A stretch of 64,000 bases of DNA from Antennarius striatus (taxonomy: Eukaryota; Chordata; Actinopteri; Lophiiformes; Antennariidae). Made by a program: the position numbers and the translations under genes. The stretch covers positions 7,336,001 to 7,400,000 of the forward strand of contig NC_090783.1 in the NCBI RefSeq assembly GCF_040054535.1, written 5' to 3'. Below, piece after piece: positions 55,092 through 58,000 of this stretch. How positions within the stretch are numbered: position 1 is the stretch's first letter; the number at the start of each line of letters is the position of its first letter. The notes below the pieces were generated by a model that saw only the letters and a program-made list of their open reading frames with translations, ran no database searches and was not told the DNA's origin.

Positions 55092-58000
55092 ATGAAGGTA
55101 CAGTTTCCCTAACTATAAATGTCTGTGTTTAGCTATTTTCCTTAAAATATCAACATGTGGTGGATGATATGATTGTGCACTTTAATACGGCATTGTTTAA
55201 TGACGCCGTTACGTTTCGTGTATTTGGGATGAGCTTTGATTGTGAAGGCTGTAGCTACGAGTCTCTACTCATTGAGTAGGACAAACATGGCCGCACTGAG
55301 AAAATGTGCGCCGTGTTCACTTCGGTTTAGTGCAAAAAGAAACATAACATTCTCTCTTGTTAAATTCACTGGAGCTGAGCCTCACTGTTCGTTTTTCATG
55401 TAAAAGTAATAGTGGTTATAGTACCCATAGTCAGGCGCGGAAAGCAAAAGTCGGTTGGTCTCCAAGTTAGCAGAGAAGCTAACAGGCCTCTGAGCCAATG
55501 ACTGACGCTAACTTGACCTCATGCAGTTCAAACAAACACTTGATCATTGATTGAGTTATGGACAAATTTCTCGTGTCGTGGAAGTTGCATTAATTGAGCT
55601 ATGGCTCTAAATAATGTTAACAATCTGTGTATGATGACTGATGCTAACCTGTATGGAGCCTTGTATAATATATTAAATGAATTGGTCTGTTGTACTTCTA
55701 GCTGAACGTCTCATTTCCCGCTACTGGCTGCCAGAAGTTGATTGAAGTTGATGATGAGCGTAAGCTGCGTACTTTCTATGAGAAGCGGATGGCTACTGAG
55801 GTGGCTGCTGACCCTCTGGGCGATGAGTGGAAGGTAATGTGATGTTTATTTTGTGTACTACATTGGATCTGATTGATTGACATTTGCTAGCTTACCACGG
55901 TACAGAATGAGTCTTTGAAATACTGAAATCATTTATACTGATCTAGTGTAAAGTGGCACACCAGTAGACCCTTTTTGATTTGTCTGTATTCATCAAGGGG
56001 GGACAGTGTGTTGCCAGAAGAAATGCAGAGCTGCTTACCAGATGTGACCAGGCCATGTGACTGTGTTTACAACAGCATTGCTCTTACAAGTCCCTTAAAT
56101 CTTCAAAGACACATAATTTTTAAGTCATCAAGTAATACTTATATTTGCAAAAGGTTGCAGGGCAGAGAAAATGAATCAACTGCATTTAATCAAACAAGCT
56201 ATCAGTGTCTCCTGAAATTCATGAACTACAAATTAAATCTGCATGCATATTATCTGCCCTATGTTCATTTACCAACCTTTCCAAAAAAGTTTTAAATGTT
56301 ATGTCACCTGTTGGAATTCTTAATACTGATGTAGAATTTCTGAAATTGAGGACAGACTGGTATTTTCACAAACAGGGTTAGTATGTTGGTTGGTGCAGCA
56401 ATTGTTAGACATCAGAAAACTGAAGATGAGAGAAGCTTGTTCATCTCATCTTTAAATATTAACAACTTAATTAAACGACAGTAGTGGCTCTTCAGATTCA
56501 AGTATCATTTTTAGAGAAATATCTGTGTTTCAGCTAAGTTTACTGTGTAGGCTGGTGCTGACCATTTTTACTTATGTTGTTTTTGCCTTGGTATGTCTCT
56601 GTGAAACTATAGAATGCCCTGTTCATAAGATAAATCTGCCAAGTCCCATAGGTTTATACTTTCTGTTTGACCAAAGTGGTGACCTTACTTTGCATGTGGA
56701 AAATCTGTTAATGACGTGTGCATTAGCGATACAGCTGCAGTCTTAATTCTAAAATGCTTAGACACATAATGGCGTTATTGGTGATTTAAAGTTTAAGACA
56801 TTAAAAGTAAGAGTTTCAGTTTCATCAGCATGAACTGTGCAAATTGTTCCTTTTATTTACAACATTAATAGGTAACCAAAATGATAGAGCAGAGAAGTAA
56901 CTGCCATCTCTGTTTACATCTCCAGGGTTATGTGGTGCGCATCAGCGGGGGCAACGACAAGCAGGGCTTCCCCATGAAGCAGGGCGTGCTGACCCACGGC
57001 CGTGTGCGCCTGCTCCTGAGCAAGGGACACTCATGCTACCGTCCCCGCAGGACTGGCGAGCGCAAACGCAAGTCTGTCCGTGGTTGCATTGTTGATGCAA
57101 ATCTCAGTGTTCTTAACTTGGTCATCGTCAAGAAAGGTGAGATTCTTCTTAATGTTGATTCTTTTTATGGGAATTATTTGATAGCACAGGGTCTTTTTCT
57201 GATGACCAAAACTGAAATGTAGGGCTGACTCTGTTACTTCTGTTTGTGGCACACACTAGACCCTTTTTGATTGGTCTGTAGTCATTAAGGGGGCACAGTG
57301 TGTTGCCAAAGTAACTGTGGAGCTGCTTACCAGATGCGACCAGTTCCGGGTTAGTGGATGGTTGAACTGCATTGCTCTTTCAGTATGTCTTTGACAGGTG
57401 CAGGAATGACACTGAACCCATTTTTTCTTGTTAGTATGATAACGTGCAGCCATGTGATTGTTGGACATTGATGAAGTTCTCTGTACTTGAAGGGAATTGA
57501 CAAGATTTTACTTTTCATCTAAGAAACAGCAACTCCCTTTACGGTCTGTTCAATGTTGAACGTTATTGCACTGTTTAAAAGGCAGTGAAAAGGGGTTCAA
57601 TTGGGATTGTTGTTTGCATCAAAGTAGTAAACCAGCACGGTGATGGAACAGGATGGGTGTTGGGCATTCGATGTACCGTATTGGACCGAATATAAGACCC
57701 CCTCTTTTTCAAGACTCAAGTTTGAAAAAACTTTTTGAACACGAAATTTAATTTATACAGAAAATAATTGCAGTACATCTGAAACAAATGATTATAACAA
57801 TATATTCGAGAGAAAAGGCATGTTAGCAAAAGCAAAAGCTTCATTTAAATAATGCAAAAACTCTATCCCGCATCCCGTCCTTTTCGTTTCTCGTCCACGG
57901 ATGCACACACCCTCCTGTCAAGGACCGTGGAAAGCTTTTCTCTGACTGAGCATTTTTTAGGCGATCTTTTTGAGGTCTCCGTACATAAAACTCTGTGACA

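Follow-up and report, generated by a model that had tools for sequence, protein, structure and literature searches.

Two SNORA58-family H/ACA snoRNA homologs in consecutive introns of rps6 in Antennarius striatus, one with an altered guide

Introns 2 and 3 of rps6 in Antennarius striatus each contain an element related over its full length to the H/ACA snoRNA SNORA58 (ACA58; Rfam RF00418). We place a probability of about 0.88 on the reading that both elements are intron-encoded SNORA58 genes, of which the first (copy 1) would guide the modification of a uridine in 28S rRNA and the second (copy 2) is most likely a decaying paralog.

Two SNORA58 relatives in the introns of rps6

The window analysed is a stretch of 64,000 nucleotides (C8:7336001-7400000) of a genome searched as 548 Mb in 42 contigs, and positions given below are those of the window. 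The host gene, at approximately 55093-60153, was recognized as rps6 by five tblastn matches to human RPS6 (55702-55833, 56917-57141, 59094-59288, 59560-59718 and 60055-60150), with 73-97% identity, the 73% match taking in intron letters. Its first exon, read by eye, has just two codons. Intron 2 (55834..56925, +) and intron 3 (57137..59136, +) were delimited by tblastn with boundaries set by eye. The RF00418 match places copy 1, a SNORA58-family H/ACA snoRNA with a guide predicted to be intact, at 55954..56091 (+), and copy 2, a paralog with an altered guide, at 57247..57385 (+); they are 138 and 139 nt long and start 120 nt inside intron 2 and 110 nt inside intron 3, respectively. Intron 3 also holds an element of about 0.7 kb (57671-58394), with inverted ends of 41 nt that are 80% complementary, which looks like a non-autonomous DNA transposon.

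The two copies agree at 113 of 139 aligned columns (81%), or at 112 of 141 for the body in the intron alignment. The best local alignment of intron 2 with intron 3 scores 81.5, whereas the best of 200 dinucleotide shuffles of intron 2 reached 33.0, and blastn of intron 2 against 57138-60500 returned the snoRNA match (E 2e-30) together with one 12-nt match (E 0.45). The 5′ flanks (60 nt) share 34 of 68 positions, where shuffled sequences gave a mean of 30.2 and a maximum of 37 identities; for the 3′ flanks, 29 of 70 columns are identical. With the body similar and the flanks diverged, only the snoRNA-sized body has visibly been kept. A shared, larger intron duplication was considered and rejected, as blastn and the intron alignment show only the snoRNA still in common. 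The second copy would stem from a duplication between the neighbouring introns, in either direction.

A DNA search of the genome with copy 1 as query found two places among the best candidates scored, namely the two rps6 copies. We also rejected a scattered repeat: among the best candidates scored there were these two DNA-level places, and with RF00418 the same two plus one place at 24 bits. The original prediction of two related elements of about 137 nt in rps6 introns 2 and 3, paralogous and of H/ACA type, with no scattered mobile repeat behind them, is therefore borne out by the lengths, the 81% identity, the tblastn matches to the host and the genome searches with DNA and RF00418.

An Rfam search, as the original prediction had proposed, reported neither intron element at gathering thresholds; an E-value scan of 55000-60500 found RF00418 in both. 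The matches cover model positions 1-136 of 136, copy 1 scoring 49.4 bits (E 2.4e-7) and copy 2 scoring 52.4 bits (E 4.7e-8), and neither reaches the gathering score of 75 bits. Across the whole genome, copy 2 (E 1.1e-6) and copy 1 (E 5.8e-6) were the top two of 41 scored candidates. The third RF00418 place (L005; 24 bits, E 6), among the best 41 of 39,197 first-look candidates, was regarded as noise in view of its score and of its initial 400 bases. At E <= 10, RF00418 also matches, below its cut-off, five of the 14 prokaryote control genomes. Scores under gathering are found for other snoRNAs in this genome: in six stretches flanking two of the UBAP2-family loci, SNORA42 (43 versus 70 bits) and SNORD56 (33.6 versus 36) fall short, while SNORD57, SNORD121A and SNORA26 exceed their thresholds. 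Fish snoRNAs can escape Rfam cut-offs, as both copies and SNORA42 show.

Judged by E-value and by the guide of copy 1, both copies are homologs of SNORA58, though they lie under the curated cut-off. They share with the family their full length, two hairpins and the H box, and copy 1 has the ACA box as well as a 5′-hairpin guide for the identical 28S uridine. They differ from it in sequence (67 of 103 columns identical to the consensus in a partial alignment of copy 1, 84 of 132 in copy 2, both local alignments), in forming a pair in neighbouring introns and in their scores below gathering. The proposal that this might be an unannotated, unnamed guide was thus not upheld: each copy is related to SNORA58 over its full length, and the SNORA58 guide for 28S is present in copy 1.

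Layout, folding and the guide pocket

In copy 1 the H box AGAAGA (ANANNA; 56016..56021, +), found by eye, stands at a distance of 16 nt from the upper stem, and 3 nt lie between the ACA box (56086..56088, +) and the predicted 3′ end. The H box of copy 2, also found by eye, is AAAGTA (57308..57313, +), and both inspection and the RF00418 match put TCA in the place of ACA (57380..57382, +). The full H/ACA layout that had been described therefore stands as far as the two hairpins, the H box and a 3′ box are concerned, but in copy 2 that 3′ box is TCA and not ACA. In H/ACA snoRNAs 14-16 nt separate the target position in the pocket from the H or ACA box; counted by eye on hand-chosen stems, the distance is 16 nt in both 5′ hairpins and 15 nt in both 3′ hairpins.

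RNAalifold, applied to the two copies together with the Rfam consensus, gave two hairpins with 33 pairs; the H box of each copy lies in the hinge. In this set of three rows, one of them a Rfam consensus and all of them used to derive the structure itself, 86.7% of the cells pair and seven of the 33 pairs change on both sides, which none of 500 shuffles reached; shifting the 3′ partners by 1-3 columns left 36-52% paired cells and at most two double-changed pairs. The double-sided changes mostly set the fish sequences against the Rfam consensus, with little between the copies. Of the pairing-preserving stem changes that had been claimed between the copies, one G-C to G-U change in the upper stem was recovered, but essentially nothing more, so that this part of the original prediction is thin.

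Folded alone, the 5′ hairpin of copy 2 is more stable than all 200 of its shuffles (z -3.73), and that of copy 1 is equalled by 22 of 200 (z -1.30). The 3′ hairpins fold no better than shuffles (z +0.61 in copy 1 and -0.17 in copy 2). Taken as a whole, copy 1 is outdone in stability by most of its shuffles (z +1.19, 180/200), and copy 2 has z -2.40 (3/200). When the pocket is held open, the lower and upper stems persist in both 5′ hairpins. The 3′ hairpin of copy 1 is weak (lower-stem pair probability 0.31) and refolds once both pocket arms are constrained to stay open; the 3′ hairpin of copy 2, which has a lower-stem probability of 0.98, keeps its fold under the same constraint. The lower stem of copy 2 is extended, as had been noted, but in the free fold the extension runs into the guide pocket.

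Copy 1 brackets the uridine of 28S CACUGUCCC-U-A-CCUACU with 9+5 pairs: its right guide arm GGGACAGTG (56000..56008, +) forms nine pairs with CACUGUCCC, and its left arm AGTAG (55963..55967, +) five with CUACU. The resulting score of 14 was equalled at none of 160,231 U sites from random sequence with a fixed base composition, and the Rfam SNORA58 consensus reaches 13 at this uridine, with none of 159,957 random U sites as good. Copy 2 scores 9.5 there, 24 of 159,423 random U sites being as good. Its right arm GGCACAGTG (57292..57300, +) forms eight pairs around a C.C mismatch at 57294, and its left arm, CTAG where copy 1 has GTAG (57256..57259, +), retains three. The guide base beside the upper stem gives an A.C mismatch both in the fish and in the Rfam consensus, and the stretch GAGCTGCTTACCAGATG is identical in both copies. 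The scan of the pockets against rRNA that had been suggested thus found the 9+5 match for the 5′ pocket of copy 1; its real rRNA was a single 105-nt piece of 28S, and its background was random sequence. The 28S letters of this piece do not come from this fish; the target stretch among them is also present in the Rfam LSU consensus. A review (PMC12931454) lists SNORA58 for 28S Psi3823. We infer that the CCCU uridine bracketed by copy 1 corresponds to this human position.

A 28S query against the genome matched six places, 76-92% identical and pseudogene-like, four of the loci being incomplete or disrupted when compared with the LSU model; a search of the genome for the 5.8S family gave no match. 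The real rDNA seems to be absent from the assembly or beyond the reach of the search. The window itself contains a decayed 28S fragment at 48588-48748 (-; 50.5 bits, or 36.1 bits for 48604-48712), along with a tRNA-Leu gene with anticodon CAA (15533-15605, -) and a 130-codon open frame (63132-63524, -) that by eye resembles the terminal part of a LINE reverse transcriptase. Exact rRNA patterns did not occur in the viral contigs, nor the 28S piece in plasmids or phages. Four contigs from bacterial assemblies (L012-L015), three from an Escarpia endosymbiont and one from a Planctomycetaceae metagenome, hold an animal-type 28S pattern at most about 67 nt from one end and have no rRNA at Rfam gathering scores; we presume that these are contamination with R2-type retrotransposon insertions of the host.

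Status of the two copies

Copy 1 would be transcribed with rps6 and released from the spliced intron 2, and its RNA would join the H/ACA proteins, which are dyskerin, NOP10, NHP2 and GAR1. Its 5′ pocket would pair with the 9+5 nt of 28S, whereupon dyskerin would isomerise the bracketed uridine. Copy 2 appears to have lost, since the duplication, full complementarity and the ACA box. The “guide pair” that had been proposed accordingly holds up for copy 1, which looks intact, but not for copy 2, which is without part of the guide and without the ACA box. On the sequence evidence, decay is the most likely fate of copy 2, and its re-aiming at another RNA is less likely. For degenerate, non-expressed snoRNAs the name “pseudogenes” has been proposed in a survey of vertebrate snoRNAs (PMC10234308), the title of which names motif conservation and stability as drivers of snoRNA expression.

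Two other readings would leave copy 2 a function. The copies might form a dosage pair, both active on the same 28S uridine, copy 2 in spite of its one mismatch; this uridine is indeed the best site of copy 2 within the 105-nt segment (9.5; 24/159,423), and its 5′ hairpin (0/200 shuffles as good) and well-paired 3′ lower stem are sound. The C.C mismatch in the right arm, the mere three pairs in the left arm, the lower stem that enters the pocket and the TCA in place of ACA make us regard a dosage pair as unlikely. Alternatively, in this fish lineage SNORA58 may have moved to rps6 or always have been there and been duplicated, copy 1 keeping the ancestral 28S site and copy 2 being re-aimed by two guide changes; we consider such a history quite unlikely. 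That copy 2 is under selection as guide for a new target, through two G-to-C changes and a shorter pocket, would fit its higher Rfam score, its hairpins, which exceed those of copy 1 in stability, and the conservation of GAGCTGCTTACCAGATG in both copies; against this, the ACA box is gone and nothing positive points to any new target, so that we hold selection for a new target to be distinctly doubtful.

A further view is that both copies are non-functional fossils derived from a snoRNA, perhaps by retroposition. Rfam scores under threshold and the weak 3′ hairpin of copy 1 are what fossils might present, but copy 1 has kept a 14-pair guide while the flanks diverged to about the shuffled level; by eye, neither copy has a poly-A tail or a target-site duplication beside it, and the DNA and RF00418 searches of the genome reported no further copies among the best candidates scored. 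We consider fossils very improbable. Three of the four single-hairpin folds (z -1.30, +0.61 and -0.17) are not clearly above shuffles, as would be expected of chance hairpins or an unrelated intronic repeat family; the whole-genome E-values of 1.1e-6 and 5.8e-6, and a DNA search that reported only two copies among the best candidates scored, speak against either. This reading, already disfavoured by the DNA copy search and the RF00418 matches in window and genome, deserves next to no credence.

Host genes of SNORA58

One survey (PMC3511168) dates SNORA58 in UBAP2L back to the amniote ancestor and regards the copies in MRPL3 and NDC1 as later; these published hosts contrast with rps6 here. UBAP2L is the reported amniote host and forms no part of the Rfam definition; both fish copies are in rps6 instead. 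The main text of PMC3511168 contains neither “rps6” nor “ribosomal protein s6”, nor any of six fish terms. Chicken ACA58 is GGgACA6, in UBAP2L intron 14, with a guide of 5+6 nt in the 5′ hairpin, according to a chicken survey (PMC2653536). Like copy 1, it has a 5′-hairpin guide for the ACA58/snR9 site, chicken 28S-3333; it differs in its host gene and in the additional targets listed for it (18S-120 and 28S-1612). Yeast snR9 is given in the same survey as the functional counterpart of ACA58 (PMC2653536), a likeness of cited function.

In the titles and abstract beginnings of the open-access literature we found no report of SNORA58 in rps6 or of any snoRNA in vertebrate RPS6, which fits the expectation from the outset that none was known there. 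A study of Drosophila ribosomal-protein genes (PMC2246290) reportedly mentions snoRNAs and RpS6.

Of the seven places reported in the genome for the UBAP2-family domain (PF12478), three score above its cut-off. Nine stretches of 10,000 bases around these three loci, overlapping by 200 bases, amount to approximately 89 kb of distinct sequence and may fall short of whole genes; Rfam scans at E <= 5 found no SNORA58 in them. When the two copies were combined with the consensus into a model of their own, this model likewise found nothing in these ~89 kb, and matched only the copies in the window, as it must by construction. The MRPL3 and NDC1 loci were covered by the whole-genome RF00418 search only. 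Other snoRNAs do occur in these stretches. Near the domain on C5 (L025, 3440-6778) are SNORD57 and SNORA26 over gathering and SNORD56, SNORD110 and SNORA42 under it, and we take the SNORDs of this cluster to be those of NOP56. Near the domain on C3 is SNORD121A (L023, 5219-5290; 46.5 bits); since human UBAP2 hosts SNORD121A, this locus is presumably ubap2.

By homology and guide, though under the curated score, the elements belong to a snoRNA family already known; they sit in a host gene for which we found no report, with a diverging second copy, and represent no new class. The published history begins SNORA58 in the amniote ancestor; the rps6 copy with its 28S guide, if confirmed, would extend the history of the family to the common ancestor of bony vertebrates. 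A cytosolic ribosomal-protein gene would then join the hosts of SNORA58, and which host is the older would become a testable question.
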